From Nitrososphaerota archaeon (GTDB taxonomy: Archaea > Thermoproteota > Nitrososphaeria > Nitrososphaerales > Nitrosopumilaceae), in the NCBI GenBank assembly GCA_028867275.1, contig JAGWGU010000008.1, positions 1-44,876 on the forward strand: a DNA stretch of 44,876 bases. The letters run 5' to 3'. The notes under the pieces were generated by a model. That model saw nothing but the letters and a program-made list of their open reading frames with translations, was not told the origin of the DNA and did not search any database. Below are positions 5,244 to 28,787 of this stretch, piece after piece. Position numbers and translations under genes: made by a program. Position 1 is the stretch's first letter. Each line of letters begins with the position of its first letter.

Positions 5244-6145
5244 GAACCACATTCATTAACACTTTAAGGGATCTGGCAAGAAAAGATGAACGTGTATTTT
5301 TAATAACAATTGACATGGGTTATTCAGTTCTAGAACAATTCAGAGAAGAATTTCCAGACCGTTTTCTAAACACCGGTATTGCAGAACAAAACGCTATAGG
5401 AGTTGCTGCAGGACTAGCTCTCTCAGGTAAAATTGTATATGTTTACAGCATAATTCCATTTGTCACCATGCGTTGCTTTGAGCAAGTCCGACTAGATTTG
5501 GCATATAATAATGCTAATGTAAAATTAGTTGGGATTGGTGCTGGAATGACATATGGGCCTTTTGGTGCAAGTCATCATTCCATAGAAGACATTGCGATAA
5601 TGAGATCAATTCCAAATATGACTGTTCTATGTCCAGGAGACCCAATAGAAACAGAACAGCTAACTCGGCAGAGTTATGAGATTAAAAGTCCGGTGTATAT
5701 ACGACTAGGTAAGAATGGAGAGCCAAAAATACATTCAGAAGAAACCAAAATCAAATTAGGATATGCAACACAAGTAACAGAAGGAAATGATCTAATACTC
5801 ATTACAACTAGCAATATGCTAGAAAAAGGAAAAAAATGGGTAGATGAATGGAAAGAGGAGGGAATATCTGTCCGTCTCATAAGTATGCATACGATAAAGC
5901 CATTTGATGTACAGGCAGTCAAAGAATTAATTGATCACAACATACCAATTATCACATTAGAAGAACATAACATCATTGGAGGATTGGGTAGTGCAGTTGC
6001 AGAAGTTATCGCTGAAAGTGGCAAGGCTGTAAGTTTCAAACGAATTGGAGTTCCAGACAAATATTCTCACTATGTTGGTTCTCATGAATTTCAACGAGAG
6101 AAATTTGGTATAGCAAAAAAACCAGACATAAAATTTAGAAAATGA
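5240..6145 (+). CDS. Transketolase, C-terminal (pyrimidine-binding) subunit
   Basis: A 301-residue partner of the preceding gene, containing the Pyr domain and the C-terminal transketolase domain. TGIAEQNAIGVAAGLA holds the conserved Glu that activates the TPP aminopyrimidine. GPFGASHHSIEDIA and the VYIRLGK stretch are family-typical. Translation appears to start at a TTG that overlaps the stop of the N-terminal subunit gene (TTGA). ITLEEHNIIGGLGSAV marks the C-terminal domain. With the N-terminal subunit it should form an alpha2-beta2 type transketolase. It is the last gene of the rfbF operon, with a 103-bp gap after it. Confidence 0.9.
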   Translation: MRTTFINTLRDLARKDERVFLITIDMGYSVLEQFREEFPDRFLNTGIAEQNAIGVAAGLALSGKIVYVYSIIPFVTMRCFEQVRLDLAYNNANVKLVGIGAGMTYGPFGASHHSIEDIAIMRSIPNMTVLCPGDPIETEQLTRQSYEIKSPVYIRLGKNGEPKIHSEETKIKLGYATQVTEGNDLILITTSNMLEKGKKWVDEWKEEGISVRLISMHTIKPFDVQAVKELIDHNIPIITLEEHNIIGGLGSAVAEVIAESGKAVSFKRIGVPDKYSHYVGSHEFQREKFGIAKKPDIKFRK

Positions 6146-11628: not shown

Positions 11629-12324
11629 ATGACACAAATTGTAGTCTTGGCTGGCGGAAAAGCTACTAGATTGTATCCTGTAACCAAGGATATGCCAAAG
11701 AGTATGGTAAAGATCAACGGTACCCCATTCATAACTCATCAAATTAATCTTTTCAAGAGAAATGGCATCTCTGATATTGTTCTCTGTGTTGGCGTGTTTT
11801 CTGATCAAATAATTGACTATGTAGGTGATGGTTCAAAGCTTGGAGTATCAGTAAAATATTCTATTGAAAATGAGACAAATCTTCTTGGCACACTTGGAGC
11901 ACTGCTCAATGCACATGATCTTTTGTCAGACATATTTTTTGTAACATTTGGCGACTCTTACTTGGAAATTGACTATGGAAAAATCTATGAAAAATTCTTG
12001 CATTCTGACAAAATGGGATTGATGACTGTATACAAGAACAACAACAAGTACGTATCCAGTAATACTGCAATCAAGGACGGAATGGTAATACGATATGACA
12101 AATCAAATAGTGATATTTTTGAGTATGTTGATTACGGCCTTTCGATTTTCAGAAAAAAGGCACTAGATTTTTTCCCAAAAAACAAGAACCTAGATCTGAC
12201 CCAGCTAAACCAGAAGCTGATCTCTATGAATGAACTGGCTGCATACGAAGTACATCAAAAATTCTATGAGATAGGAACGTTTGAGGGGATTTCTGATCTA
12301 GAGCTGCATCTGAAAACTAGGTAG
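11629..12324 (+). CDS. hddC: Sugar-phosphate nucleotidyltransferase, HddC-like
   Basis: A 231-residue nucleotidyltransferase. The signature is LAGGKATRLYPVT with KSMVKINGTPFI; the change of the second Gly of GGxGTR to Ala is usual in the HddC-like group. TFGDSYLEID carries the metal-binding Asp. Length and position beside gmhA, gmhB and hddA point to D-glycero-alpha-D-manno-heptose-1-phosphate guanylyltransferase, which gives GDP-heptose. The nucleotide (GTP or another) is not proven by the sequence. It converges on the kinase-like gene with only two bases between the stop codons. Confidence 0.8.
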   Translation: MTQIVVLAGGKATRLYPVTKDMPKSMVKINGTPFITHQINLFKRNGISDIVLCVGVFSDQIIDYVGDGSKLGVSVKYSIENETNLLGTLGALLNAHDLLSDIFFVTFGDSYLEIDYGKIYEKFLHSDKMGLMTVYKNNNKYVSSNTAIKDGMVIRYDKSNSDIFEYVDYGLSIFRKKALDFFPKNKNLDLTQLNQKLISMNELAAYEVHQKFYEIGTFEGISDLELHLKTR

Positions 12325-12326
12325 AT

Positions 12327-13310
12327 CTATTTTTCTTCCAACCATCTGTCATACTCTAATTTTGCCTTTTTTATGTCGCTCAGGGATAGTGAATCTGCAC
12401 TGCTCTTGGATACTGCAATTCCTGCAGCAATGTTTCCTAGCTTGCACGAGTCATGAAAATTAACAGAGCCTGCAAGTGATATGCTTGTTACGGCAGTCAT
12501 GGCCTCACCAATGCCTTTTATGTCAATTTTTACATTTTCTGTGGCAGGCATTTCTGTTGTAGTATCTTCATCATAAATTGCAATACCTTCTCCCCCTCTT
12601 GTGAGAAGGATTCTATTTGATTGTAATACACTTGCTAGTCTGCTACAGATCAAATGCGATGGTACCTTGCTTATCTCTGGTTCTTTAATTAGTAAAGCGG
12701 CATTTTCCAAATTAATTTTAATTATGGTACTAGGATCTTTGTACATCAAATAGTTATAGCCTGCCGAAGTTATGAAGACATCGATTTTTCTTCGTTTTGA
12801 TTCTAAAATAAGATGTTCTGCAATTTTCTTGTTGAGGGTACCAAACCCATAATCTGCTATTATTACTAATTTTGTATTTCTTAGCTCATCTGTTATTATT
12901 TTGATTATCTTTTTTGTATTTATCTCATCTAGCTTTTCATCAAAAATTTCATCAAATCGTGCAGTCTGTATGTTGTTTACCATTATTCTAGATATCTGAG
13001 GCGTTTTTCTTCTTGTCTCTAAAATTCTAGAAGTGCGAATTTTCAGTTTTGTCAATTTTTTTCTAATCATTTTTCCTGGTATGTCGTCTCCGATTATTCC
13101 TATTGGAACTATGTTTTTAGCTCCCAGTCTTGATAATTTTTCTGCAATTATGCCAGCTGTACCCAAAAAAGATTCAGAATGTGTGACATCTACTATGGGT
13201 ACAGGCGCATCGCGCGCAATTCTGTTTATGGTACCGTGGTAAAATTGATTTATTGAAAAATCTCCAACAAGAATTATCTTCTTATCCGTACTTTTAGCCA
13301 CATCTTCCAA
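12327..13310 (-). CDS. PfkB/HldA-like sugar kinase homologue with altered catalytic motifs
   Basis: A 327-residue protein of the PfkB ribokinase superfamily, closest in pattern to the kinase half of HldE (NRIARDAPVPIVDV, LSRLGAK, TRGGEGIAIYD). Three normally conserved sites differ: GDxxxD near the N-terminus is GDFSIN (Asn21), the GGAxNVA motif is GTAGIIA, and the catalytic GAGD is GIGE with Glu269 for the base Asp. It may be inactive, regulatory or re-specialised, especially because HddA is present in the same operon. It starts at TTG 13310 with a TATA-like element at 13323-13337, so it may have its own promoter inside the heptose operon. Confidence 0.8.
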   Translation of the reverse strand: MEDVAKSTDKKIILVGDFSINQFYHGTINRIARDAPVPIVDVTHSESFLGTAGIIAEKLSRLGAKNIVPIGIIGDDIPGKMIRKKLTKLKIRTSRILETRRKTPQISRIMVNNIQTARFDEIFDEKLDEINTKKIIKIITDELRNTKLVIIADYGFGTLNKKIAEHLILESKRRKIDVFITSAGYNYLMYKDPSTIIKINLENAALLIKEPEISKVPSHLICSRLASVLQSNRILLTRGGEGIAIYDEDTTTEMPATENVKIDIKGIGEAMTAVTSISLAGSVNFHDSCKLGNIAAGIAVSKSSADSLSLSDIKKAKLEYDRWLEEK

Positions 13311-13322
13311 TTTACTATCTTG

Positions 13323-13337
13323 TATAATTATATTTAT
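13323..13337 (-). promoter_or_regulatory. TATA-like element before the PfkB-like gene
   Basis: Reads ATAAATATAATTATA on the minus strand, about 15-27 bases before the TTG start at 13310. Supports that start and a separate transcript for this gene. Confidence 0.4.
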
Positions 13338-13360
13338 GATGGAATAATCAAAATTTGGAT

Positions 13361-14020
13361 TTATTTATTCGTAAATTCTTTCCATGCCTTGTCAAACTCC
13401 TCGATGGTCTCTTGGGTTTTTTTGTGATATGGCATTTCTGAGATGATTTTGTACGGAATTGTGATTATGTGTGCCCCTGCTGCGGCAATCTGCTCGACGT
13501 CTTTTGGATGCCTGATGCTTCCAGCTATGAGTTTTGCTGAATATCGATTCTCCTTGACCCAGTCAGCGTATTCCCTTATGGTTTGTAGGGGATTTTCACC
13601 CGCATCCTTTGCTCTGTTGTAAAACAAGCTTACATAGGTAGCACCAGCCTTTGTTGCCAACATAAGCTGGTTTAGATTCATCATTACCGTCACATTGATC
13701 TTTATACCTTCTTTGGATAATATGTTGATGGCTTCTAGCCCCATCCCATCTGCAGTCATGGCAATTTTTGGTATCACATTTGGTGCTATGTTTACAAAGA
13801 ATCTTGCATCATTGAGTATCTCTTCTAATGTAGAGCCGTTTGACTCTACACTTACTGGCTTGTTTCCTAACATCTTACAAATTTCAAGCACTCTGTCTTG
13901 AAAGTCTACACCTTTTTCATTTAGAAAAATTTTTTGGTTTGTTGTTACGCCGTCAATAATTCCCCATCTTAAAATATGACTAATTTCAGTAACGCTTGCA
14001 GTATCAAGAAATATCTCCAT
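13361..14020 (-). CDS. Transaldolase / fructose-6-phosphate-aldolase-type, heptose operon
   Basis: A 219-residue TIM-barrel protein of the small transaldolase (TalC/MipB/FSA) type. It starts MEIFLDTASVTEI and has DGVTTNQ, the Schiff-base lysine in IPKIAMT (Lys85, the same number as in E. coli FSA), and KAGATYVSLFYNR. In the usual family VTTNPS follows the strand; here it is VTTNQK. Lying between gmhB and the PfkB-like gene, it could provide sedoheptulose-7-phosphate, the GmhA substrate, from fructose-6-P and erythrose-4-P. Transaldolase versus aldolase activity cannot be decided from sequence. Confidence 0.85.
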   Translation of the reverse strand: MEIFLDTASVTEISHILRWGIIDGVTTNQKIFLNEKGVDFQDRVLEICKMLGNKPVSVESNGSTLEEILNDARFFVNIAPNVIPKIAMTADGMGLEAINILSKEGIKINVTVMMNLNQLMLATKAGATYVSLFYNRAKDAGENPLQTIREYADWVKENRYSAKLIAGSIRHPKDVEQIAAAGAHIITIPYKIISEMPYHKKTQETIEEFDKAWKEFTNK

Positions 14021-14079
14021 GATTGCAAATCTTTACTAATTGTAATTAAGGGTTTCCTAACAAAATACACAAATCTAAT

Positions 14080-14694
14080 TCAAGATACACTTGTTGTCTT
14101 TTCTATTTTTTTTATATAGTTTGCAGCTTCAAGCAAATCATGTGCAACATAGAAAGGGTTGATCTTCTTTTCATGAAAAACTCTTGTTACTGTGGAATTG
14201 ATATTCCCAATGAAGATGGTTCTGCATTTTACTCTCTTTGCAAGCTGCATATCTGTAATTCCATCTCCTATTAGAAATGAATTTTTTGTATCTATGTTGT
14301 GCTCTTTTACTGCATCAAAGAAAAGTTTAGTTCCAGGTTTTCTGCATTGGCATTTTTTCTTGTATTTTGGTATTTTGGCATTGGGGTGATGTAAACAATA
14401 GTATTGTCCTGCAAGTGTAACATTGCTGTCATGTAATTGGCTTTCTAATTTTCTTTTTATCTTGAGAAATTCAGACATGTCGTATTGTCCTTTTGCTATT
14501 CCTGGCTGGTTTGATATTATGATCAACTTGTATCCAAGTTTGCTTAGGATCTTCATTGCCTTAATCGAACTTTTAATCACATTGAACTGTCCTGAAGAAT
14601 TTGGCGAATCTACAAGGCCCTCTTCTGAATTTATAACTAGGTCATTGACTACTCCGTCTCTGTCAAGTAAGATTGCTTTGCTCTTCTTATTCAT
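14080..14694 (-). CDS. gmhB: D-glycero-D-manno-heptose 1,7-bisphosphate phosphatase (HAD)
   Basis: A 204-residue HAD-family phosphatase with the nucleophile motif LLDRDGVVND (Asp11, acid/base Asp13), IISNQPGIAKG (motif II) and IGDGITDMQLA (motif IV). A GmhB-type zinc site is formed by Cys100, His102, Cys115 and Cys117 (CLHHP and CQCRKPG). It removes the 7-phosphate from heptose-1,7-bisphosphate, giving heptose-1-phosphate for HddC. It overlaps gmhA by eight bases, so the two are probably translated together. Confidence 0.92.
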   Translation of the reverse strand: MNKKSKAILLDRDGVVNDLVINSEEGLVDSPNSSGQFNVIKSSIKAMKILSKLGYKLIIISNQPGIAKGQYDMSEFLKIKRKLESQLHDSNVTLAGQYYCLHHPNAKIPKYKKKCQCRKPGTKLFFDAVKEHNIDTKNSFLIGDGITDMQLAKRVKCRTIFIGNINSTVTRVFHEKKINPFYVAHDLLEAANYIKKIEKTTSVS

Positions 14695-15289
14695 CTGCCG
14701 CTAGTTTTTCTCGTATGATTGAGCAAATCATGTGAGTAAGTATCAGATGAAATCCTTCAACATGTGGGGTTGAATTGATTGGCACTGTTATGCAGGCATC
14801 TGCCAAATTACGTAGTGCACCTCCATCAAACCCTACCAATCCTACCACCTTGCCTCCTCGTTGCTGCACGTATTTTGCAGCCCTTAGAAGATTTTGTGAC
14901 CACATGGCAGCATGATCCTTGCCACTGCCTCCATGAACACTTACTGCAATAAGATAGTCTCCGTCATCCATCAAATTTTCTAACTGATAATGGTAAACGC
15001 TATCCCATCCTTCATCATTAACAAGTGCTGTCAGCAATGGGACATTGTCCTCCAGAGAAATTACTCTAAATCTGGTTTTTTCTGGTACTGATGTGTATTT
15101 GTTTAAATCGCATGCAAAATGGGTGGCAGTTGAAGCAGAGCCGCCATTTCCAATTACAAATATTTTCTTGTTTTTTAACCTGGCCTCATTTAGGATCTCT
15201 ATTGCTTTATTGATGTCTTCCTTAGATATTGTGTCTGCGATTTTCTTTACGTCCTCTAGATACTGACTAATGGAATTAATGTTGTTCAT
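14687..15289 (-). CDS. gmhA: Phosphoheptose isomerase (SIS domain)
   Basis: A 200-residue SIS-domain isomerase that turns sedoheptulose-7-phosphate into D-glycero-D-manno-heptose-7-phosphate. It has GNGGSAST at residues 47-54, HFACDLNKYT, SVHGGSGKD and the C-terminal VEGFHLILTHMIC, where GmhA keeps its metal- and substrate-binding residues. Length is normal for the family (about 192). It overlaps hddA by four bases and gmhB by eight, forming the core of the heptose operon. Confidence 0.93.
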   Translation of the reverse strand: MNNINSISQYLEDVKKIADTISKEDINKAIEILNEARLKNKKIFVIGNGGSASTATHFACDLNKYTSVPEKTRFRVISLEDNVPLLTALVNDEGWDSVYHYQLENLMDDGDYLIAVSVHGGSGKDHAAMWSQNLLRAAKYVQQRGGKVVGLVGFDGGALRNLADACITVPINSTPHVEGFHLILTHMICSIIREKLAADE

Positions 15290-16287
15290 TGAAACTTGCT
15301 CGAAAGGTTGAATATTATTTTGCTTCCCTCGCTTTCAAAAGGCATTTTTACTTCTCTAAGTCCTGATGAAATAAATTCTTTTCTTAAACTATTCTTTGCC
15401 TCTCTGTCTTTTACATAAAACATGAGAAACCCTCCTCCACCTGCACCTATGATCTTTCCTCCCAGGGCACCGTTTTTCTTTGCTAGCTCATATTGTTTGT
15501 CAATTAGTGAGTTTGAAATCTTTGATGATGTTTTTTTCTTTTCGTTCCAGTGGTAATCCATCAATCTCCCAAACTCATCAACATCGTCATTTTCCAGACA
15601 TTTCTTGATGTCCAAACCTATTTCTTTAATCTTATTTAGATACTCCAAGCTCATTGGATTTTTATGGGAATTATTTTTCTGATCTTTTAATACTTCTGAG
15701 GCAGATCTTATTATCCCTGTATCAAAAAATACTAGATTATTTTCTAGTGTTTCTTTAGCATAATCTGAGATCTTTAATGGTTCCACATCCACATCTCCAT
15801 TTTTTTTAATTGTGAAACATGTGAGATTTCCAAAAGTTGCAATATACTGATCCTGTTTTCCAGAGGGCTCCTTTAAAAGATCCATCTCTACATTGCATGC
15901 CATCTCAGCTAAATCTTTTCTTATGATATCTTGTCTGTTGAATGTCAAAAGTGAGTGAAGCAATCCCACTGTAAAACTTCCAGATGATCCCAAACCTGAT
16001 TGTGCTGGCATGTCTGCATATGATATAATTTCAATATGTTCTGTCAAGTCTAACATTTTCAAACATTCTTTCACTATTGGATGTTGTATTTCTTCTACAG
16101 TATCACAAATCTCAGTCTGCGAATAGCTAACCCTGATATTTTTTTCATATCTATTTGAAACCAAAATGTAGACGTATCTTTGAATAGCTGCTGATAAAAA
16201 AAAACCTCCTTCCTTCTCATAATAAAAGGGAAGATCAGTTCCTCCGCCACCCAAACTTATCCTAAAGGGTGTCTTGGAAATTATCAT
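15286..16287 (-). CDS. hddA: D-glycero-D-manno-heptose 7-phosphate kinase (GHMP)
   Basis: A 333-residue GHMP kinase, first gene of the heptose operon. The N-terminus reads ISKTPFRISLGGGGTDLP, the ATP-binding motif PAQSGLGSSGSFTVG is at residues 94-108, and GGKIIGAGGGGFLMF forms motif 3. These are characteristic of HddA, which phosphorylates heptose-7-P at C1 to the alpha-bisphosphate of the GDP-heptose branch. Its presence indicates the GDP route more than the ADP route. It is divergent from the epimerase gene across a 97-bp gap. Confidence 0.92.
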   Translation of the reverse strand: MIISKTPFRISLGGGGTDLPFYYEKEGGFFLSAAIQRYVYILVSNRYEKNIRVSYSQTEICDTVEEIQHPIVKECLKMLDLTEHIEIISYADMPAQSGLGSSGSFTVGLLHSLLTFNRQDIIRKDLAEMACNVEMDLLKEPSGKQDQYIATFGNLTCFTIKKNGDVDVEPLKISDYAKETLENNLVFFDTGIIRSASEVLKDQKNNSHKNPMSLEYLNKIKEIGLDIKKCLENDDVDEFGRLMDYHWNEKKKTSSKISNSLIDKQYELAKKNGALGGKIIGAGGGGFLMFYVKDREAKNSLRKEFISSGLREVKMPFESEGSKIIFNLSSKFQ

Positions 16288-16353
16288 TATTTTAAGAATT
16301 GAACAGTCTGTTTTAATCCTTTATGGAATGATCAATTCTTGAATATCAGAAGA

Positions 16354-16362
16354 TTTTTTATG
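16354..16362 (+). promoter_or_regulatory. TATA box of the epimerase operon
   Basis: TTTTTTATG lies about 27 bases before the TTG codon at 16385, which supports TTG as the start of a leaderless message for the four-gene module. Confidence 0.45.
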
Positions 16363-16384
16363 TCCAAACCAAAATCTTGGTCTG

Positions 16385-17341
16385 TTGACTAAATTTATCG
16401 TAACTGGTGGTGCCGGATTCATTGGAAGTCACATGGTACACAGATTACTAAATAGTGGACATGAGGTTAGAGTTATTGATAAAATCTCACTTGATCAGGC
16501 AATTAGATTACAATCTGTTGCTAGTGACAAGAAATTCAGCTATTGCCAAAGAGACTTGTCTCAAGTCGAAACACTTGAACCAGATTTTAGAGGTTTTGAA
16601 GCGGTTGTACATTTTGCTGCAAGTGCAGACATTTCCTTGGGGCAAAAGAACACTGACTTGGACTTGAAACATGGAACTGTTGTGACTTTGAAAGTCCTTG
16701 AAGCAATGAGGCTGTGCAATATAAAAAAAATCATTTTTTCCTCAAGCTCTACAGTATATGGATTTCCAATCAAGGTGCCTACAACTGAAGATACTGGAAT
16801 GATGTTTCCAGCTTCTCTGTATGGTGCATCCAAGTTGGCCTCTGAAGCACTAATCAGCGCATTTTGTTATTTGTATGATATGAAATGTTGGATATTCCGA
16901 TTTGGAAACGTAATAGGAAATGATACCGCACGAGGAGTTATTTTTGACTTGGTTCATAAACTAAGGAAAAATCAGGATGAACTAGAAGTACTTGGAAATG
17001 GCGAACAAGTAAAAGATTATGTAAACATCGATGACTGCCTGGATGCAATTTTGCATTCGTTTTCCAAGGCTGATGAAAAGATAAACGTGTTCAATCTAAG
17101 TTCTGGGACAATACTTTCAGTAAAAGATCTAGTCAAAATAATTTTAGAAGAAATGAATCTCAAAAATACTAGAATCAGATACACCGGAGGGCCTCAAGGA
17201 TGGGGAGGTGGCGGATGGGCAGGTGATGTCAAAATCGTTCATTATGATATATCTAAATTAAAGAAACTTGGCTGGTCGCCAAAGTTTTCATCTGCAGAAG
17301 CGGTTAGATTGGCTGTAAAAGGAACCATAAAGAATAGTTAA
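16385..17341 (+). CDS. NAD-dependent nucleotide-sugar epimerase/dehydratase
   Basis: A 318-residue extended SDR, UDP-glucose-4-epimerase-like. It starts at TTG and opens with IVTGGAGFIGSHMV. Ser of the triad is in FSSSSTVYG and the YxxxK motif is LYGASKLAS. The C-terminus has YTGGPQGWGGGGWAGD, a glycine-rich stretch that I do not associate with GalE itself. It leads a four-gene operon with a dehydrogenase-like protein (5-bp gap), a Gfo/Idh/MocA oxidoreductase and another SDR. Substrate unknown; a UDP- or GDP-sugar is likely. Confidence 0.87.
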   Translation: MTKFIVTGGAGFIGSHMVHRLLNSGHEVRVIDKISLDQAIRLQSVASDKKFSYCQRDLSQVETLEPDFRGFEAVVHFAASADISLGQKNTDLDLKHGTVVTLKVLEAMRLCNIKKIIFSSSSTVYGFPIKVPTTEDTGMMFPASLYGASKLASEALISAFCYLYDMKCWIFRFGNVIGNDTARGVIFDLVHKLRKNQDELEVLGNGEQVKDYVNIDDCLDAILHSFSKADEKINVFNLSSGTILSVKDLVKIILEEMNLKNTRIRYTGGPQGWGGGGWAGDVKIVHYDISKLKKLGWSPKFSSAEAVRLAVKGTIKNS

Positions 17342-17346
17342 GATCC

Positions 17347-18651
17347 ATGGCAATAACCGAGAAGGTCTGCATTTTAGGACTATGGCACCTGGGTTCTGTA
17401 AATGCTGCCTGTCTTGCTGAGGCAGGCTACAAAGTCTCAGGATTTGACGAGGATCCAAAAGTTGTATCATCGTTAAAAAATGGCAAAGCCGTAATCTCAG
17501 AGCCTGGTCTTGATGACCTAATTGATAAAAACATGAAAAACAAAAGACTCGAGTTCTCCTCATCTATCAAAGATGCAGTAAAAGACTGTAAGGTTGCAAT
17601 TCTTACAATTGATACACCTCTTGACGACAGTGATAACGTTGATCTGTCCGGAGTCTTTAGAATTGCAGAAAATGTTTCCAAGTGTACATCCTCTGATTTG
17701 TTGCTCATAGTACAAAGCCAAGTTCCGGTAGGAACTTGTGAAAAAATCTTGGACCTTATGAAAAAAACCAACCCATCTGGCAAGTTTGAGATTGCTTACG
17801 TCCCAGAGAATCTCAGGCTTGGAAACGCAATTGAAATATTTACCAGGCCTGACCGAATCGTGATTGGATCTGATAACCCTGACACGCTGACAAAGGTTGA
17901 GAAATTTTACTCTGTTATAGGCGGACCAGTTCTAAAAATGGATCTAAAATCAGCTGAGATGTCAAAGCATGCAATCAATGCATTTTTAGCAAATTGCATA
18001 AGCTTCATCAACGAGATGGGAAATCTTTGCGAAGAGGTCGGAGCAGACGCTACAATGGTATCCAAATCACTTGCATCTGAATCTAGGATTGGAAATAAAC
18101 TACCATTAAAGGCGGGGTTGGGATTTGCAGGAGGTACATTGGCACGAGATCTCAAGATTCTAAAAAAACTACATGTTGAGCATAACATGCAACCAAGAAT
18201 GGTTGATGCCATTTTGCAAACAAATTATGAACAAAACATTATTGCATTAAAGAAACTACAAAAAACTTTTGGAAATCTATCTGGATTGCAGGTGGGTGTG
18301 TTGGGATTGACATACAAGCCTGGTACCGATACATTGAGACGCTCTTCTTCCATAGAAACAATTTCAAAACTTCTCGATAATGGAATTTCAGTCAAGGCGT
18401 TTGATCCGTCTATTCACAAACTAGACATGTTTGACGGGAAAAAATTCACGCTTGTCTCAAGTGAGTATGAGACTGCAGGTGGATCTGATGCAATATTGCT
18501 TTTAACTGAATGGCCGCAATTCAAGCAAACCGACTATGCCAAAATTCATAGTCTTATGAAAGGGCATATTTTTGTAGATGCAAAGAACCTATTGGATCCA
18601 GATTCCATGAGAAAGATAGGTTTTAACTATTTGAGTGTTGGTCGCAAGTGA
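17347..18651 (+). CDS. UDP-sugar dehydrogenase-like protein lacking the catalytic Cys
   Basis: A 434-residue protein with all three domains of the UDP-glucose/GDP-mannose dehydrogenase family: an N-terminal Rossmann fold (CILGLWHLGSVNAACLAEAG), the central helix with AEMSKHAINAFLAN, and a C-terminal domain with GLTYKPGTDTLRRSSS. YVPENLRLGNAI matches the substrate-binding loop. The catalytic motif, usually GFGGxCxxKD, reads GFAGGTLARD, so Thr264 stands where the nucleophilic Cys should be and Arg replaces the Lys. Two-step oxidation through a thioester is therefore unlikely; one-step oxidation, another redox reaction or a binding role is possible. Confidence 0.88.
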   Translation: MAITEKVCILGLWHLGSVNAACLAEAGYKVSGFDEDPKVVSSLKNGKAVISEPGLDDLIDKNMKNKRLEFSSSIKDAVKDCKVAILTIDTPLDDSDNVDLSGVFRIAENVSKCTSSDLLLIVQSQVPVGTCEKILDLMKKTNPSGKFEIAYVPENLRLGNAIEIFTRPDRIVIGSDNPDTLTKVEKFYSVIGGPVLKMDLKSAEMSKHAINAFLANCISFINEMGNLCEEVGADATMVSKSLASESRIGNKLPLKAGLGFAGGTLARDLKILKKLHVEHNMQPRMVDAILQTNYEQNIIALKKLQKTFGNLSGLQVGVLGLTYKPGTDTLRRSSSIETISKLLDNGISVKAFDPSIHKLDMFDGKKFTLVSSEYETAGGSDAILLLTEWPQFKQTDYAKIHSLMKGHIFVDAKNLLDPDSMRKIGFNYLSVGRK

Positions 18652-18661
18652 GGTCAAATAA

Positions 18662-19669
18662 ATGAAAATAGGAATTGTTGGGGCAGGACTTCAAGCCAAA
18701 AGAAGAGGACCTATTGTATTACAGTCAAAACATGAGATTGTTTCAATTACTGCAGAACATCTTGACTTGGCAAAACCGCTTGCAAAAGAATTAGGATGTA
18801 AACCAGTCTCAAATTGGATGGATGTAGTAAACTCTGGCATTGATGCATTGCTAGTATGCACTCCTCCGCATGTACATGCACAAATTAGCATTGAGGCAAT
18901 GAAAAAAGGTATTCATGTTCTCTGTGAAAAACCATTATGCACAACCATGTCTGATGCAGAACAAATGGTAAAAACTGCAAAAGAAAATAATGTCATACTC
19001 AAATGTGGATTCAACCACCGATATCATCCTGCCATAAGGCAAGTAAAAAAATGGGTCGATGAAGGGCAAATAGGAGAAATTACATTTATCCGAAGTATAT
19101 ACGGAATTGGGGCAAGACCAGATGTTCAAAAAGAGTGGCGAAGCAATCCAAAAATAGCTGCTGGCGGTCAGCTCATGGAACAAGGGATACACTGCATTGA
19201 CTTGATGCGCTGGTTTGTTGGCAATCCCAATGAGGTTGTATGTTTAACATCTACACCACATTCTTTGATTGAGCCGTTGGAGGACAATGCTTTTGTAACT
19301 TTCAAGACAGAAAAAAGTCAGCTAGTTAACATTCATTCTAGTATTTTGCAATGGAAAAATCATTTTTCATTTGAGGTTTTTGGTACTGGTGGATATGCCA
19401 TAATGGATGGTCTTGGAGGCAGTTATGGAGTGGAAAAGGCAATTCTTGGCAAAAGAGATCCATTTGGGCCATTTGCTGAGAATATTGTAGAGTTTAGGGG
19501 TGGCGATGTCTCATGGAAGCTAGAATGGGAAGAATTTGAAAACAGCATAAAAACAGGGAAAGAACCTGAAGGAAACGGAACAGATGGATATGAATCACTA
19601 AGAATGGTTTTTGCAGCTTACCAATCGCAAAGAGAAAAAAGAACAGTCAATCTAAATGAGGCCAAATGA
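18662..19669 (+). CDS. Gfo/Idh/MocA-family oxidoreductase
   Basis: A 335-residue NAD(P)-dependent oxidoreductase. The Rossmann motif is GIVGAGLQAK, the family signature HVLCEKPLCTT holds the catalytic Lys region, and GFNHRYHPA and GGQLMEQGIHCIDLMRW contain the conserved Asp/His of the active site. Members next to sugar-nucleotide genes typically oxidise or reduce the C3 hydroxyl of a nucleotide sugar. It lies 10 bp after the Cys-less dehydrogenase and 3 bp before an SDR, so all three probably work on one substrate. Confidence 0.9.
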   Translation: MKIGIVGAGLQAKRRGPIVLQSKHEIVSITAEHLDLAKPLAKELGCKPVSNWMDVVNSGIDALLVCTPPHVHAQISIEAMKKGIHVLCEKPLCTTMSDAEQMVKTAKENNVILKCGFNHRYHPAIRQVKKWVDEGQIGEITFIRSIYGIGARPDVQKEWRSNPKIAAGGQLMEQGIHCIDLMRWFVGNPNEVVCLTSTPHSLIEPLEDNAFVTFKTEKSQLVNIHSSILQWKNHFSFEVFGTGGYAIMDGLGGSYGVEKAILGKRDPFGPFAENIVEFRGGDVSWKLEWEEFENSIKTGKEPEGNGTDGYESLRMVFAAYQSQREKRTVNLNEAK

Positions 19670-19672
19670 TAA

Positions 19673-20605
19673 ATGAATATTGTTGTTACTGGGGCAACTG
19701 GCTTTATTGGTTCATACTTGGTAAATACTCTATCACAAAATAATGATTCTGTTTATTCAGTATCTCGTTCTGATAGTAAAAAGCTTAAAGATCTAAGAAT
19801 AAAATCCAAGTTTTTTGAATGTGATTTTGGAAATTCTGATTCTATAGAAAAGATGTTTTCCGAATTACAACCAGATGTTGTATATCACTTAGCTGCACAA
19901 AGTAATATTCCATTATCATGGAAAAGTCCTAGTACTACCTTTAATGTAAATATCAATGGTACAACTTCTCTTTTGGAAGCGGCAAGGAATTCAAAGATTG
20001 ATGCCAAAATTCACATAGTGTGTTCAAGCTCTGAATATGGTTCAGTTGATAAAAATGACATACCAATACATGAGGATGTTAAATTCAGACCGTCCAGCCC
20101 GTATGCTGTAAGTAAGGTAACTCAAGATATGCTGGGTTATTCATATTGGAAAAGCTATGGTATGAAAATAACACGTAGCAGACCCTTTGCAATTATAGGA
20201 CCTGGAAAAATTGGTGATGCACTGTCTGACTGGGCACAAAATATAGTCGAGATAGAATCAAACAAGAAAGAACATCTGATGACTGGGAATTTATCGTCTG
20301 TTCGTGATTTTCTTGATGTGCGTGACTGTACTTTCGCTTTAATTAAGATTGTAGAAGAAGGAAAAGCAGGTGAAGTCTATAATGTATGCTCTGGAATTGG
20401 AATACAACTAGACAAACTCATAGAAATTCTACAAAGATTTAGTAAAAAACCGTTTAGTCACATTCAAGATCCACAAAGACTCAGACCCTCAGATGATCCA
20501 GTATTAATTGGAAAAAACGAAAAACTAAAACAATTGGGATGGACACATAAAATTACAATTGAGAATACAATAAAAGATATTCTACAATTTCATAGACAGG
20601 TTTGA
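19673..20605 (+). CDS. SDR-family nucleotide-sugar dehydratase/reductase, GMD/RMD-like
   Basis: A 310-residue extended SDR opening with VTGATGFIGSYLV. The active site has CSSSEYGSV and SPYAVSKVTQD (YxxxK), and the strand RSRPFAIIGPGK plus SSVRDFLDVRD resembles GDP-mannose 4,6-dehydratases and GDP-4-keto-6-deoxymannose reductases. Because GDP-heptose is probably made nearby, a role in making a GDP-6-deoxyheptose is an attractive but unproven idea. Last gene of its operon; convergent with the following methyltransferase gene (7-bp gap). Confidence 0.85.
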   Translation: MNIVVTGATGFIGSYLVNTLSQNNDSVYSVSRSDSKKLKDLRIKSKFFECDFGNSDSIEKMFSELQPDVVYHLAAQSNIPLSWKSPSTTFNVNINGTTSLLEAARNSKIDAKIHIVCSSSEYGSVDKNDIPIHEDVKFRPSSPYAVSKVTQDMLGYSYWKSYGMKITRSRPFAIIGPGKIGDALSDWAQNIVEIESNKKEHLMTGNLSSVRDFLDVRDCTFALIKIVEEGKAGEVYNVCSGIGIQLDKLIEILQRFSKKPFSHIQDPQRLRPSDDPVLIGKNEKLKQLGWTHKITIENTIKDILQFHRQV

Positions 20606-22838: not shown

Positions 22839-23237
22839 TCTTTGTTAATATTTGAAATTAATTTGAATATTTAACTTGTTACTTGAATGCAGATAAACTT
22901 AGTCCTGCTATTTTGAACAAACTAGCAATGTGATATTAACTCAATACATCGCTAATATGTAGAGCCGTCCAAATCTTAGTACCTCTGTAATTTCTATTCT
23001 TATCATTGTCATAGCTTATTCTCCTATTATGTTATCAAGTCAAAGTTATGATCTCTCCATCATCTATTCCGCCAGAATATGTTGAATCGTCTGTCAAATG
23101 TTCGTCTATCTAGAAGTGTATACAGATCCAACGGTCTCATTATTTTCCTGTTGTATTTCCTGGTGATTTTTCTAATTTCATTTAAAAATGCACATTATGA
23201 TCGAAATTTATTAGTATGCTGGGTTATACACCTCATC
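22839..23237. other. 399-bp gap with possible remnants of a membrane-protein gene
   Basis: No intact gene. The plus strand holds two hydrophobic open stretches in different frames: about 22962-23084 (SILIIVIAYSPIMLSS) and about 23079-23231 (IIFLLYFLVIFLISFK), the second running in frame into rmlC. The first is faintly like the N-terminus of the YfhO-type protein in this window. The right end holds the rmlC promoter. Decay of an earlier membrane-protein gene is one explanation; chance hydrophobicity in AT-rich DNA is the other. Confidence 0.3.
23205..23214 (+). promoter_or_regulatory. TATA box of rmlC
   Basis: AATTTATTAG about 28 bases before the ATG at 23238. It favours this start over the upstream ATG at 23079, which would add 53 unrelated hydrophobic residues. 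Confidence 0.45.
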
Positions 23238-23795
23238 ATGCCATTTCAATTCAAAAGACTAGAAATTCCAGAAATAATACTTGTAGATGCTCAAGCATTC
23301 TCAGATGAACGAGGTTTTTTTATGGAGAGCTTTAAAGAATCTGTTTTTAGCGCAAATGGCATCAATACAAAATTTGTTCAAGATAATTATTCTCATTCCA
23401 TCAAGGGAGTCTTGAGAGGACTGCATTACCAAAAAGATCCAAAAGCACAGGCAAAGCTAGTGATAGTAGCAAGAGGAGAAATATTTGATGTTGCAGTTGA
23501 CATACGAAAAAATTCTCCCACATATGGAAGATGGGTAGGCGAGATCCTCTCAGACAAGAACCATCAACTACTCTATATTCCAGAGGGCTTTGCGCATGGA
23601 TTCTGCGTGCTAAGCGACACAGCAGATGTGCTTTATAAAATCAATTCCGAGTATTCACCAGAGCATGAGAGGGGAATTTTATGGAATGACCAAGACATAT
23701 CCATCAAGTGGCCAACAGAAAAACCAGTCATGATAAAAAAAGATCTCGAACTGCCAACGCTAAAAAACGCAGACAATAATTTTGTATATCAATAA
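23238..23795 (+). CDS. rfbC: dTDP-4-dehydrorhamnose 3,5-epimerase
   Basis: A 185-residue cupin-fold epimerase when started at 23238 (MPFQFKRLEIPE), matching the usual 180-185 residues of RmlC. SDERGFFMESF, GVLRGLHYQ (catalytic His region), IFDVAVDIR, YIPEGFAHGFCVLSD and ILWNDQDISIKWP are all family signatures. It epimerises C3 and C5 of dTDP-4-keto-6-deoxyglucose in dTDP-L-rhamnose synthesis. It is followed by rmlB after a 42-bp gap with its own TATA-like box. Confidence 0.95.
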   Translation: MPFQFKRLEIPEIILVDAQAFSDERGFFMESFKESVFSANGINTKFVQDNYSHSIKGVLRGLHYQKDPKAQAKLVIVARGEIFDVAVDIRKNSPTYGRWVGEILSDKNHQLLYIPEGFAHGFCVLSDTADVLYKINSEYSPEHERGILWNDQDISIKWPTEKPVMIKKDLELPTLKNADNNFVYQ

Positions 23796-23807
23796 TTACT
23801 AGATGGG

Positions 23808-23818
23808 AATAAATAATA
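23808..23818 (+). promoter_or_regulatory. TATA box of rmlB
   Basis: AATAAATAATA lies about 25 bases before the rmlB ATG at 23838, suggesting a separate leaderless start for rmlB-rmlD-rmlA. Confidence 0.4.
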
Positions 23819-23837
23819 ACTTGGCTACTTTGAAATC

Positions 23838-24836
23838 ATGAATATTCTGGTCTGTGGAGGAGCTGGATTTATTGGAAGTGCCTTTATCCGAAATTACCTA
23901 AAAAATAATCCCGGAGACAAGTTGACAAATTTAGATAGCTTAACTATTGGCTCAAACATTGAAAATCTAAAAGATGTAGAAAAAAACCCAAAATATAATT
24001 TCATAAAAGATGATATCCGAAACTCTGAGACCATATCAAAGCTAGCACAAGAAAATGACATTCTAGTAAACTTTGCAGCAGAGACTCATGTTGACAGGAG
24101 CATATCAAACCCAAAACCGTTCATAGAGACAAATGTCCTGGGAACATATTCATTGCTTGAGGCTGCAAGAAAATCAGACAAGCTCTTCATACATGTATCA
24201 ACTGATGAAATTTACGGCGATGCAGAAAACCAAGACTCTTTTACAGAAGAGAACAACCTAAAACCAAGTAACCCATATTCTGCAACAAAGGCTTCGGCAG
24301 ATCTACTGGTAAATGCATATCACAGAACATATGGAATAAAGTGCATTACCACAAGATGCACAAATAATTTTGGCCCATATCAATTTCCAGAAAAACTGAT
24401 ACCAAAAACAATCATCCGGGCATCAAAGAACCTCAAGGTTCCTCTCTATGACGGAGGATATCAGATTCGAAGCTGGATATACGTACTAGACCATGTAGAG
24501 GCAATTGAATCGCTCATGAGAAAGGGCAAGTCAGGTGAAACATACAACATCACTGCATGGAACGAGATCACCAACAGATCCATGGTGGAAAAAGTACTCA
24601 AACTGATGAACAAGCCATTGGACCTGATTGAAAACGTTGGAGACAGGCCAGGCCATGACAAGCGATATTCCATTGATTCCTCCAAGATACAAAAGACAAC
24701 AGGCTGGAAGCCAAAGTATGAATTTGATCAAGCCTTACAAGAAACAGTCTCATGGTACCAAAGAAACCCAACCTGGTGGGAACCTCTTACAAATGAAAAG
24801 ACACTACATCCACAACCCTGGACTGTAAACTGGTAA
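23838..24836 (+). CDS. rfbB: dTDP-glucose 4,6-dehydratase
   Basis: A 332-residue extended SDR with VCGGAGFIGSAFIR at the N-terminus, NFAAETHVDRSI, the catalytic HVSTDEIYGD (Thr, Asp, Glu), and NPYSATKASAD (YxxxK). RSWIYVLDHVEAI and WKPKYEFDQAL complete the RmlB pattern. It makes dTDP-4-keto-6-deoxyglucose, the substrate of RmlC. It is followed by rmlD with a 4-bp gap. Confidence 0.95.
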   Translation: MNILVCGGAGFIGSAFIRNYLKNNPGDKLTNLDSLTIGSNIENLKDVEKNPKYNFIKDDIRNSETISKLAQENDILVNFAAETHVDRSISNPKPFIETNVLGTYSLLEAARKSDKLFIHVSTDEIYGDAENQDSFTEENNLKPSNPYSATKASADLLVNAYHRTYGIKCITTRCTNNFGPYQFPEKLIPKTIIRASKNLKVPLYDGGYQIRSWIYVLDHVEAIESLMRKGKSGETYNITAWNEITNRSMVEKVLKLMNKPLDLIENVGDRPGHDKRYSIDSSKIQKTTGWKPKYEFDQALQETVSWYQRNPTWWEPLTNEKTLHPQPWTVNW

Positions 24837-24840
24837 AAAA

Positions 24841-25728
24841 ATGAAATTTCTTGTAACTGGCTCTGCAGGATTGGTCGGAAGCCAGGTAGTAAAAGACCTT
24901 GTAAAATCACAAAATCAAGTCTATTCTTGTTATCATGATGCCAAACCCCTTGATGGTATTCCAGTAAAACTTGATCTTGTAAATAATGAAAGTATGACCA
25001 AAGTAGTTGAGGAGGTCAAGCCAGATGTAATGATACACCTTGCTGCCATGACAAATGTAGATCTCTGTGAAAAAGAAAAGGATTTGGCATTGCAGATAAA
25101 CGCAAAAGCAACCGAGGTCTTGTCAAAGCAAGCCGCAAAACACGGATCTTTCTTTTTGTATGTATCAACAGATTATGTATTTGATGGAGAAAAAGGAATG
25201 AAAATAGAGTCTGACACTCCAAACCCAGTTGATTACTATGGCTATTCCAAATACCAAGGCGAGCTTGCTGTGCAAGACATGGCATCAAACTGGTGCATAG
25301 CACGAACAAGCACACCATTTGGGATACATGGTACCAAGAAGAGTTTTCCGTCTTTTGTAATTGAGAATCTACAATCAAAAAAAGAGATTAGTGTTGTAAC
25401 TGATCAATTCACCTCCCCGACTTTTGTTCCAAACCTTAGTCAAATGCTAATTGAGATATCGACAAGACAAATACTGGGTACAATTCATCTTGCAGGTGCA
25501 ACAAGGATATCTCGATATGACATGGCAGTACTTGTGGCCAAAAAACTAGGACTTGACACGAGTCTGCTGAAACAATCAAGTATCAAAGATATGAACTGGG
25601 TTGCAAAAAGGCCAAGAGACTCGTCACTAGATGTGTCAAGGGCAACCCAACTTTTAAACGAAAAACCCATGCCAGTAGAACAAGGGCTGGACCGTTTTAT
25701 ACAAGAAATAAAGAACAAACCAAATTGA
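24841..25728 (+). CDS. rfbD: dTDP-4-dehydrorhamnose reductase
   Basis: A 295-residue reductase of the RmlD family that uses NAD(P)H for the final step to dTDP-L-rhamnose. It has VTGSAGLVGSQVV, PDVMIHLAAMTNVDLCE, YVSTDYVFDG and the active-site YYGYSKYQGE (YxxxK). DQFTSPTFVPNL and RPRDSSLDVSRA are typical of the C-terminal half. It lies between rmlB and rmlA within a tight operon. Confidence 0.94.
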   Translation: MKFLVTGSAGLVGSQVVKDLVKSQNQVYSCYHDAKPLDGIPVKLDLVNNESMTKVVEEVKPDVMIHLAAMTNVDLCEKEKDLALQINAKATEVLSKQAAKHGSFFLYVSTDYVFDGEKGMKIESDTPNPVDYYGYSKYQGELAVQDMASNWCIARTSTPFGIHGTKKSFPSFVIENLQSKKEISVVTDQFTSPTFVPNLSQMLIEISTRQILGTIHLAGATRISRYDMAVLVAKKLGLDTSLLKQSSIKDMNWVAKRPRDSSLDVSRATQLLNEKPMPVEQGLDRFIQEIKNKPN

Positions 25729-25758
25729 AATATACTCCGTATGATAACCCAGATCAAA

Positions 25759-26820
25759 ATGAAAGGAATACTACTTCACGGAGGACACGGGACAAGACTT
25801 AGGCCGCTTACCCATACAGGTCCAAAGCAACTCTTGCCAATTGCAAACAAGCCAATGTCGCAATATGCCCTTGAAGACTTTAGGGAGGCAGGAATCACCG
25901 ATATTGGAATTATAATTGGAGACGTTTATCCAGAAAAAGTCAAAGAGTTCTATGGAGACGGCTCTAAATTTGGTGTAAAAATTACCTATATCTATCAAGA
26001 CAAGCCAGCAGGAATATCTCATGCAATAAAACTCTGCAAAGATTTCATTGGAAATGACAGGTTTGTTGTGTATCTTGGTGATAACATACTGCGAAAAGGG
26101 CTGGTAGATTATACAAAAAAATTCCAATCATCTGCAGCAGACGCCATGATATTATTGTGTGAAGTAGACGATCCATCAAGGTTTGGCGTAGTAGAGCTTG
26201 ACGGAAAAAAAATAAAAAAAATAGTGGAAAAGCCAAAAATCCCTCCATCAAACTTGGCAGTAATTGGGGTATACTTTCTTACTCCAAAAATATTTGACAT
26301 CATTGATATCCTAAAACCATCCTGGAGGGGAGAATTGGAGATAACTGAAGCTTTACAACTTTTAATGGAAAAGGGAAATACAATTGAGTATGATGTTGTA
26401 ACGGGCTGGTGGAAGGATACAGGTACCCCCGAGGATATCTTGCATGCCAACCAGCTAGTCCTGGATACTATAGGAACACAAAACCAGTTCCGTATAGATG
26501 CCGATACCAAAATACAAGGAAATATTGCTATAGGAAAAAACACCAACGTATCTAGGGACTCGTTTATCACAGGTCCTGTAATAATAGGGGACAATTGTAT
26601 CATTGGTCCTGCAGCAAGAATTGGGCCAAATGTATCAATTGACAACAACTGTTCTATAAAACAATGTGATGTGGAAAATTCCATAATTATGGCAGACTGC
26701 AAGATAGATGCCAAGATTACCATATCAGACAGCATAGTTGCACATGGCTCTGAGATCACAAACCATCATCTAAAAAAACACCAGTTCCTCTTGGGTGAAA
26801 GGTCTCAAGTAAGACTATAA
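25759..26820 (+). CDS. rfbA: Glucose-1-phosphate thymidylyltransferase, long form
   Basis: A 353-residue nucleotidyltransferase that makes dTDP-glucose. The catalytic domain starts MKGILLHGGHGTRLRPLT, with GPKQLLPIANKPM, VYLGDNILRKG and VTGWWKDTGTPED. The C-terminal third has hexapeptide-like repeats (IQGNIAIGKN, ITGPVIIGDNCIIGPAARIG), as in the archaeal long form that resembles Sulfolobus ST0452-like enzymes. An ATG at 25741 would add six residues; I prefer 25759 because the core motif begins there. It ends the rml operon just before the APS kinase gene, with which it may be co-transcribed. Confidence 0.92.
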   Translation: MKGILLHGGHGTRLRPLTHTGPKQLLPIANKPMSQYALEDFREAGITDIGIIIGDVYPEKVKEFYGDGSKFGVKITYIYQDKPAGISHAIKLCKDFIGNDRFVVYLGDNILRKGLVDYTKKFQSSAADAMILLCEVDDPSRFGVVELDGKKIKKIVEKPKIPPSNLAVIGVYFLTPKIFDIIDILKPSWRGELEITEALQLLMEKGNTIEYDVVTGWWKDTGTPEDILHANQLVLDTIGTQNQFRIDADTKIQGNIAIGKNTNVSRDSFITGPVIIGDNCIIGPAARIGPNVSIDNNCSIKQCDVENSIIMADCKIDAKITISDSIVAHGSEITNHHLKKHQFLLGERSQVRL

Positions 26821-26830
26821 CTTGACAGGT

Positions 26831-27351
26831 ATGCAGGCAGTTGCAATCTGGTTAACAGGAATTCCAGGCTCTGGCAAGACTACACTGGCAAACCTGCTAA
26901 AAGAATATTTCCAGAAAAAAATGTTATCTGCCATCGTCTTGGATGGTGACGAGATGAGAAAGACAATATCAAAGGATCTGGGATTTTCACCAGAGGACAG
27001 AAAAGAACACAACAGACGGATAATCGAGGTAGTAAAGCTGATGGTAAAAAACAACATTACAGCTATTATCCCAATCATATCACCATATAGAGAGACAAGA
27101 GGTCTTGCAAGAAAAGAGATTCCAAATTTTGTAGAGGTCTATGTCAAGGCATCCTTGGATACGTGCATGAAAAGAGACCCAAAGGGATTGTACCAAAAGG
27201 CAAAGAATGGAGAGATTACAAACCTCACAGATTACAATCCCCATATGAAGAGCCTCAGAATCCTGAAGTGATCTTGGAGACCGAAAAATTTACGCCGCAA
27301 GAGTGTCTAGATATCTTAGTTTCAAAACTACAACTTGGATACTTGAAATAA
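26831..27351 (+). CDS. cysC: Adenylyl-sulfate (APS) kinase, frameshifted near the C-terminus
   Basis: APS kinase makes PAPS, the sulfate donor for sulfotransferases. The first frame has the P-loop GIPGSGKTT, VLDGDEMRKT, DLGFSPEDRKEHNRR and KRDPKGLYQKA. It then runs off frame at a CCCC tract (27239-27242) and stops at 27271. The -1 frame carries the expected end (PYEEPQNPEVILET, then LGYLK) up to 27351. One base is therefore missing relative to the intact family, by real mutation, sequencing error or, less likely, programmed slippage. The start may be ATG 26831 or TTG 26822. It lies 10 bases after rmlA. Confidence 0.85.
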
Positions 27352-27353
27352 AA

Positions 27354-28787
27354 CTACCAGTCAAACTGGTACGCATCATATGCATGCAGATTTGCTCTAG
27401 ACCATTTGACACTTGTCTTGTTTGCAGAATAACTCACAAGAGGTGGAGGAGTGGCATGTATCTTGTATCCTGTTTCAGTGTCGACCTTGAGAACACGTGT
27501 CTTTAGATCCATCTTCTTTGACATGATAAAATTGTACACAAATTTTTTACAGTCAGATGCAAACCTGTAGAAAAATGTGCGCTCAGGCTCCTCCCAGTCA
27601 TACTCTAATATCAAAATCTTTTTCTGCCTTGGCTTCAAGGGACGATTCAGTTTTACATTAAACTCCTTGTGGTATGGCTTGTTTACATTAAGACTCTGTA
27701 TCTCAAGCTTGTTTCCCCTCTCATCTTTTACAGTTACATTCATGTCTGCAAACTCCTTTGGCACGTCCCCATCCAGATAATAAAACACCTGCTCCTTTGG
27801 TTCCTTTGCTATGTTGATAACATTCCAAGTCCATGTGTGATGTGTAAGCATTGTCTTGGTATCAACTACTTCCAAGTCAATCTCAATTTTATTAAATACA
27901 AAGTTGTTTGTTGTTTTTATCTCTTTTTCCTGGTTGCTCTTTGGCACCTTTGACTTGCGCGGAGCAATCTTGTTTCCAAACCCATCTCCATAGATATTGT
28001 ACAGGTTTAGCTGCTCGCCATGCTTGATTGAATAATCCCCTATTGGGTGCATGATGAACTTGTACTCTGGTGACAGTCTGCGTATGTCGTCTGCAATTCT
28101 TGACGATGCCAAGATCTGCATGTCTCCTGCAAGGTCCATGACTCTCCTTGTCACTATGATTCCAGGACCCCAAACATTTGCGTGTCCTGTGATATCTTTA
28201 ATAAAATAAACCGGCCCCATGTCAATTCCTATTCGAATCAAAAGCTTCTCCTTTCCTCTTCTCTGTAAATTGTACTTGTTGAGTGCCTTGTGAACCTCGA
28301 TAGCTAACTTCAAGGGTTTTTCAGGGCTGTCAGAAAATCCAATTGCCATGCCGTCCCCTGTCGATAAAATTACAGTAGAATCCTTGTCTCTGTTCTTAAA
28401 CGTCTCAACCCTTGCAACAATCTCGTTTATTGCAACTACTTTTCTTACCTGGTCCTTTGTAGGAACGGTAGGATTGGAACCTGCCACAATGTCGCAAAAG
28501 AACCAGTGATAAGTCCTTGTGAGTGTCTTGACATCCCCAAAGTTCTCAAAGTCATCGCCTCTTAAGACCTGTAAAACATTAGACACAAAACCTGCAGGGC
28601 ATGACTTTAAAATCTGAAAGCTATTCATGGTATGCTTGAAAGGCGCCTTGACCCGTGATTTTTTTATCTGTTCCAGTATCCAGTCCTTTCCTCTGTGGGT
28701 CTCATCTAGCAGCCCCAAAATTTCAGCAATTTCTGAAATTTTTTCAGCCTCTGTATTCTTTCTGGCAACTTTTTGCAATGGAATCAT
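27354..28787 (-). CDS. Class III nucleotidyl cyclase-like protein with novel C-terminal domain
   Basis: A 477-residue cytoplasmic protein without signal or membrane segments. Residues about 90-265 form a cyclase homology domain: FFCDIVAGS (first metal Asp99), LSTGDGMAIGF (second metal Asp145), IRIGIDMGPV, and WGPGIIVTRRVMDLA, where the transition-state Arg (about 215) is kept but the usual Asn (VNxAAR) is Ile211. The C-terminal ~190 residues (DLEVVDTKT onward) look beta-rich with aromatic patches and match no family I recognise. It may make a cyclic nucleotide or only bind nucleotide. It is convergent with cysC and preceded by a promoter region that is duplicated at 29739-29782. Confidence 0.8.
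   Translation of the reverse strand: MIPLQKVARKNTEAEKISEIAEILGLLDETHRGKDWILEQIKKSRVKAPFKHTMNSFQILKSCPAGFVSNVLQVLRGDDFENFGDVKTLTRTYHWFFCDIVAGSNPTVPTKDQVRKVVAINEIVARVETFKNRDKDSTVILSTGDGMAIGFSDSPEKPLKLAIEVHKALNKYNLQRRGKEKLLIRIGIDMGPVYFIKDITGHANVWGPGIIVTRRVMDLAGDMQILASSRIADDIRRLSPEYKFIMHPIGDYSIKHGEQLNLYNIYGDGFGNKIAPRKSKVPKSNQEKEIKTTNNFVFNKIEIDLEVVDTKTMLTHHTWTWNVINIAKEPKEQVFYYLDGDVPKEFADMNVTVKDERGNKLEIQSLNVNKPYHKEFNVKLNRPLKPRQKKILILEYDWEEPERTFFYRFASDCKKFVYNFIMSKKMDLKTRVLKVDTETGYKIHATPPPLVSYSANKTSVKWSRANLHAYDAYQFDW

Follow-up and report, generated by a model that had tools for sequence, protein, structure and literature searches.

A Threonine-for-Cysteine Subfamily of the UDP-Sugar Dehydrogenase Fold, Encoded with Putative Long-Chain Sugar Genes in a Nitrosopumilaceae Archaeon

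Contig JAGWGU010000008.1 of a Nitrosopumilaceae archaeon, a marine ammonia oxidizer (assembly GCA_028867275.1), was analyzed over positions 1 to 44,876 of its forward strand, a stretch of 44,876 nucleotides referred to here as the window. It carries a gene, here called L (17347-18651), whose product has the fold of the UDP-sugar dehydrogenases and a threonine in the place of the catalytic cysteine. Judging from sequence comparison, L appears to belong to a separate subfamily of the nucleoside diphosphate (NDP)-sugar dehydrogenase fold that lacks the Cys but is functional. The explanation that we favor, and that is probably correct, is that L acts on an NDP-heptose or NDP-octose, forming a ketone at the secondary C6 hydroxyl in a reaction that is either two-electron or redox-neutral.

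The protein and its subfamily

The open reading frame runs from an ATG at 17347 to a stop codon ending at 18651 and encodes 434 amino acids. The three-domain architecture PF03721-PF00984-PF03720 is complete (141, 83, and 99 bits), and the protein scores 346 bits against TIGR03026 (nucleotide sugar dehydrogenase), for which the cut-off is 189.8. Among solved structures, L is closest to three UDP-glucose dehydrogenases (4a7p, 3gg2, and 2y0e; about 33% identity), and the best Foldseek match of an AlphaFold2 model of L (pLDDT 86, pTM 0.80) is the last of these, BceC, with a TM score of 0.83. Residues 259-268 read GFAGGTLARD, with Thr264 at the position of Cys and Arg267 at that of Lys, exactly as an earlier reading of this DNA, made from the sequence alone, had described, coordinates and frame included. 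A search of the genome that contains the window found no PF00984 protein besides L.

The sequence-only reading had also held that all other family blocks were intact, and in this it was mistaken. Eighteen residues are invariant among 229 NDP-sugar dehydrogenases (PMC4794789). By alignment, four of the 18 are lost throughout the subfamily (numbering of the S. pyogenes enzyme first, then of L): Gly9 to Trp13, Thr118 to Gln125, Gly257 to Ala261 (Ser in one member), and Cys260 to Thr264. Tyr10, 98% conserved in the family, is His14 in L; the GxGxxG block reads GLWHLG and the Thr118 region SQVPVGT. Also changed subfamily-wide are Phe142 (Asn155), Glu145 (Leu158), and Asp/Asn325 (Thr329), and one extra residue is inserted at 253. 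The N-terminal changes are scored in 6/6, one member being truncated before residue 133. With some ten changes fixed in the subfamily, an ordinary UDP-glucose dehydrogenase with a single odd residue was rejected as a description of L.

The residues kept in L are Asp34, Thr90, Ser124, Pro153, Glu154, Glu204, Lys207, Asn211, Arg247, Asp268, Asn293, Lys324, and Arg331. Those of the first oxidation (Lys204, Asn208, and Asp264 in family numbering) are retained as Lys207, Asn211, and Asp268 in all seven members, and in all seven the catalytic Cys260 of GGxC is absent, Thr264 standing instead. Roles in alcohol oxidation and in the thioester half of the reaction have been assigned to active-site residues (PMC4794789, PMC3184952): Tyr10 is reported to catalyze thioester hydrolysis (PMC4794789), and the Thr118 position is tied to NAD exchange (PMC3184952). 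By this assignment, most of the differing residues have to do with the sugar loop, the nicotinamide site, or the thioester half of the reaction, while those of alcohol oxidation stay. L shares with the UDP-glucose 6-dehydrogenases (BceC 2y0e, UgdG 4a7p, P. gingivalis 3gg2) the fold, the Lys-Asn-Asp residues, and the cross-subunit Arg, but unlike them it lacks the catalytic Cys, Tyr10, and Thr118, has an altered GxGxxG and sugar loop and a one-residue insertion, and keeps other gene neighbors.

The search for homologues and their neighbors that the sequence-only reading had proposed was run, and it gave, with L, seven Thr-type members, each encoded in a sugar-supply cassette or, on short contigs, at the edge of one. 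The relatives of L are 47-55% identical to it and carry the same substitutions. They come from a Nitrosopumilaceae archaeon that shares its genus with the window genome (L005, the same as G018), a second family of Thermoproteota (G379, L025), and, among bacteria, three Chloroflexota (L004, L007, L026) and one Elusimicrobium (L006), which has two ordinary Cys paralogues beside the Thr protein. The type is rare, found in 3 of 398 Thermoproteota, 3 of 400 Chloroflexota, and 1 of 248 Elusimicrobiota genomes, and as the genomes searched are a sample, this distribution is a lower bound. The viral contigs searched contained no relative of L. Plasmids gave 253 records matching L, all below 60% identity (36.9% for the best listed), and the three examined were all Cys-bearing.

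The Thr proteins are monophyletic in a tree built with Cys-bearing proteins: a branch with 100/100 support separates all seven from 16 Cys-bearing proteins, in a tree that is unrooted and in which 10 of the 20 inner branches are open. The threonine is invariant (7/7) and encoded by ACA, ACG, or ACC. Decay or assembly error was rejected, the same substitution being present in seven sequences with different codons. Purifying selection on the subfamily is seen in one pair, the sole pair close enough to measure, where the ratio of nonsynonymous to synonymous substitution (dN/dS) is 0.087/1.00. The earlier claim that L is not decaying holds up on both counts.

A cassette of putative sugar-supply genes

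As had been claimed from the sequence, L lies in what looks like a tight operon, in second place: M, L, Z, and SDR2 follow one another between 16385 and 20605, spaced 5, 10, and 3 bases apart. Divergent from it, 97 bases upstream, are genes for a GHMP kinase, a GmhA-like isomerase, a GmhB-like phosphatase, and a TAL/FSA transaldolase; beyond the transaldolase come a PfkB heptose-kinase-like gene and then a nucleotidyltransferase gene convergent with it. The genes, including members of the short-chain dehydrogenase/reductase (SDR) family, are as follows.

11629-12324 (+): O, sugar-1-phosphate nucleotidyltransferase; family scores do not settle the nucleotide
12327-13310 (-): PfkB kinase resembling the HldE/RfaE heptose-7-phosphate kinase domain (TIGR02198, 187 bits, cut-off 345); homologue in the G018 cassette
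13361-14020 (-): R, transaldolase of the TAL/FSA family, LmbR-like
14080-14694 (-): K, HAD phosphatase, GmhB-like (NF006506, 140 bits)
14687-15289 (-): N, SIS-domain isomerase, GmhA-like
15286-16287 (-): P, GHMP sugar kinase, HddA-like (NF049969, 183 bits; heptose kinase 3k85, E 4e-46)
16385-17341 (+): M, extended SDR of epimerase type, LmbM-like (SSSSTVYG and YGASK motifs), 5 bases 5' of L
17347-18651 (+): L, UDP-sugar-dehydrogenase-fold protein with Thr264 replacing the catalytic Cys, LmbL-like (domains, motif, tree, structure model)
18662-19669 (+): Z, Gfo/Idh/MocA oxidoreductase, LmbZ-like, 10 bases 3' of L
19673-20605 (+): SDR2, extended SDR, candidate GDP-ketosugar reductase (best solved relative 2pk3)

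Around the Thr proteins of G018, G445, G446 (where the GmhA-like gene is further along the same contig), and G379 this enzyme set recurs, and part of it is present on the short contigs of G658 and L007. Genes for M, Z, transaldolase, kinase, and phosphatase are near the Thr protein at every locus with a long enough contig. The same search around 12 Cys-bearing family members, at loci that the searches returned rather than at a random sample, found no sugar-supply gene.

A known counterpart is the gene set for the lincosamide octose, comprising R, N, P, K, O, M, L, and Z (PMC12945683, Tables 1 and 2; PMC4351081, Table 2), in which LmbM, LmbL, CcbZ, and CcbS turn GDP-octose into GDP-lincosamide (PMC12945683). 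The classes R, N, P, K, O, M, and Z are all encoded with L in the window cassette. LmbL and CcbL (described as a "C8 dehydrogenase"), of lincomycin and celesticetin biosynthesis, act together with LmbM and CcbZ on derivatives of GDP-octose, and their clusters likewise hold genes for a transaldolase, an isomerase, a kinase, a phosphatase, a nucleotidyltransferase, an epimerase, and an NAD(P)-dependent oxidoreductase (PMC12945683, PMC4351081). LmbL resembles UDP-glucose dehydrogenases. Wang et al. in 2020 reportedly described the sequence of events as 6-epimerization, 6,8-dehydration, 4-epimerization, and 6-transamination, and LmbL is said in that work to keep the hydride and return it after elimination of the C8 hydroxyl, making the 6,8-dehydration redox-neutral; this is taken as a lead, not a test. 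The hosts differ, L occurring in an archaeon and in uncultured bacteria and LmbL/CcbL in Streptomyces.

A second counterpart is the GDP-heptose pathway of PMC10680097, whose isomerase, kinase, and phosphatase types are homologous to those of the window cassette. The list of its modification enzymes contains a C4-dehydrogenase, a 4,6-dehydratase, C3/C5-epimerases, a C3-dehydratase, and C4-reductases but, unlike the window, neither a cassette transaldolase nor a C6 enzyme with the UDP-sugar-dehydrogenase fold. The literature was searched for a Cys-less UDP-glucose dehydrogenase with heptose as its substrate and for a more widespread octose pathway, and nothing specific was found.

Two side observations concern these loci. 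The cassettes of the window and of G018 each have two heptose-kinase-like genes of different folds, one PfkB/HldE-like and the other GHMP/HddA-like. Also, a conserved protein of about 300 amino acids, with GDNPFxGVxHLSQ near its N-terminus and no Pfam match in the two members scanned, is encoded beside cassettes (L004:5079-5978, +; L025:6375-7310, -; L029:1253-2206, -; L039:3-917, -).

A probable ketone at C6 and its alternatives

In the scheme proposed here, the neighboring genes would make an NDP-activated C7 or C8 sugar by way of transaldolase, isomerase, kinase, phosphatase, and finally nucleotidyltransferase. L would then oxidize the secondary C6 hydroxyl to a C6 ketone, using NAD+, Asp268-water, Lys207, and Asn211. 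Since C6 of a heptose or octose is secondary, the oxidation would stop at the ketone, with no role for a nucleophilic Cys or for thioester hydrolysis. The residues of the thioester half-reaction (Cys260, Tyr10, and in part Thr118) would be dispensable, their places taken by Thr264, His14, and Gln125. A secondary hydroxyl would therefore account at once for why Cys260 and Tyr10 are lost while Lys, Asn, and Asp stay, and for the proximity of genes for long sugars.

The scheme has two variants. In the first, L may behave like LmbL, keeping the hydride and returning it after the C8 hydroxyl is eliminated, a redox-neutral 6,8-dehydration that would require an octose. In the second, NADH would leave, and the free ketone would be processed by M, Z, or the Rmd-like reductase SDR2. 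With a heptose, elimination of a C8 hydroxyl is not available, and the free 6-ketone would be passed on. The match of SDR2 to 2pk3, a GDP-6-deoxy-D-lyxo-4-hexulose reductase (E 6e-71), makes it a plausible ketone reductase and gives a hint of GDP as the carrier. In this scheme we infer the substrate, its carbon number, the GDP carrier, and the product.

A number of observations weigh against a C6 ketone on a long sugar. The putative GDP-heptose supply genes hit their families, with scores that fall below the curated cut-offs (HddA NF049969, 183/600; GmhB NF006506, 140/178; GmhA TIGR00441, 92/209; HddC, 77/300), and with none of the kinase, phosphatase, and nucleotidyltransferase above its family cut-off, the carbon number and nucleotide are unproven. 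The likeness of L to LmbL is one of gene set and description, not of sequence, and orthology is not claimed; no LmbS-like aminotransferase is found among the genes at 11629-20605, unlike the lincosamide cluster. Model confidence in L is lowest at residues 256-263, the catalytic loop, and NAD binding could suffer from the Trp that replaces the second Gly of GxGxxG. Nor does loss of the Cys by itself prove a two-electron enzyme, because the C276A form of human UDP-glucose dehydrogenase (UGDH) still oxidizes added aldehyde, even though it does not complete the reaction from UDP-glucose (PMC3184952). Finally, the archaeal cassettes of G020 (same genus; L039) and G242 (L050) have R, N, P, K, M, Z, and a classical SDR, but no L was found in them by the genome searches or by direct tblastn of both loci. 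These cassettes show that the pathway can run without L, which is on this evidence an optional, separable step. In both, the genes for M, Z, and the classical SDR are side by side, and in G242 a DegT-type aminotransferase gene lies downstream. Each of the nine loci read has L, a classical SDR, or both; the pattern was seen afterwards in few loci and is a lead only.

The same human enzyme bears on the possibility that L is still a four-electron dehydrogenase, with Thr264 or water forming a hemiacetal or hydrate that is oxidized to the uronic acid. The sequence-only reading had argued that L can form no thiohemiacetal for the second oxidation. The nucleophile is indeed gone, but the oxidation of added aldehyde by C276A means that this loss alone does not forbid the second oxidation, and C276S accumulates a covalent adduct (PMC3184952); the active-site Lys, Asn, and Asp are moreover kept in L. 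The possibility is nonetheless unlikely: Tyr10 and Thr118 are replaced as well, the failure of C276A to carry UDP-glucose through to the end tells against it, and the C6 hydroxyl of a heptose or octose is secondary.

It is likewise improbable that L oxidizes an ordinary NDP-hexose at its primary C6 hydroxyl and goes no further than the aldehyde, which would then be reduced, aminated, or epimerized by the products of neighboring genes. Genes for CDP- and dTDP-hexoses are present in the same window, but they are not common to the other Thr cassettes, while supply genes of heptose/octose type are, and in UGDH no free UDP-glucose aldehyde was detected as an intermediate (PMC3184952). The earlier reading had allowed for an aldehyde, a ketone, or a different redox reaction. 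Because L travels with heptose/octose-supply genes, a C7 or C8 sugar bearing a ketone is the more coherent product, and a hexose aldehyde the less likely one.

Perhaps L is instead an NAD-dependent C6 epimerase or reductase of the same long sugar, re-reducing the ketone in place or catalyzing reduction only. Redox-neutral chemistry would fit the change of Thr118, the NAD exchange residue, to Gln125 and the pairing of M, L, and Z. M, however, is already an epimerase-type SDR, and nothing specific favors epimerization over oxidation or dehydration, so the chance of this is slim. A catalytically dead scaffold or regulatory paralogue is very improbable: four universally conserved residues are lost, one of them a glycine of the NAD motif, but Lys207, Asn211, Asp268, Arg247, Lys324, Asp34, and Thr90 are kept, selection is purifying in the measurable pair, and the genome has no active paralogue for L to regulate.

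If L does form a C6 ketone on a long sugar, then one fold would switch between four-electron oxidation of primary alcohols and two-electron or redox-neutral chemistry on secondary alcohols through defined substitutions, and gene neighbors would predict the substrate of a fold variant. Marine archaea would have long-chain (C7/C8) activated sugars, and genes of this kind, routinely annotated as "UDP-glucose 6-dehydrogenase", would have their annotation corrected. A broader proposal, possible but tentative, is that ammonia-oxidizing archaea, Chloroflexota, and Elusimicrobiota share a lincosamide-type octose/heptose nucleotide pathway, in which L would be the C6 ketone-former or 6,8-dehydratase, with Thr264 and His14 in acid-base roles. 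The sugar half of lincomycin would then have a wider origin, the antibiotic octose pathway being one branch of a wider surface-sugar pathway.

Other genes in the window

The 1843-amino-acid open reading frame at 36938-42469 (+) has no Pfam match at E 1e-4. At 23079-27271 (+) are genes of dTDP-rhamnose type (RmlC-, RmlB-, RmlD-, and RmlA-like), with an APS-kinase-like gene after them. Those at 1481-6145 (+) encode a glucose-1-phosphate cytidylyltransferase (TIGR02623, 458 bits) and a CDP-glucose 4,6-dehydratase (TIGR02622, 476 bits), after which come an SDR and a transketolase whose two parts are separate genes (4425-5243 and 5240-6145); together they possibly make a branched-chain CDP-sugar by ketol transfer. 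A protein of 477 amino acids (27354-28787, -) weakly matches the adenylate/guanylate cyclase catalytic domain (E 2e-5, 24.5 bits against a cut-off of 21.9).
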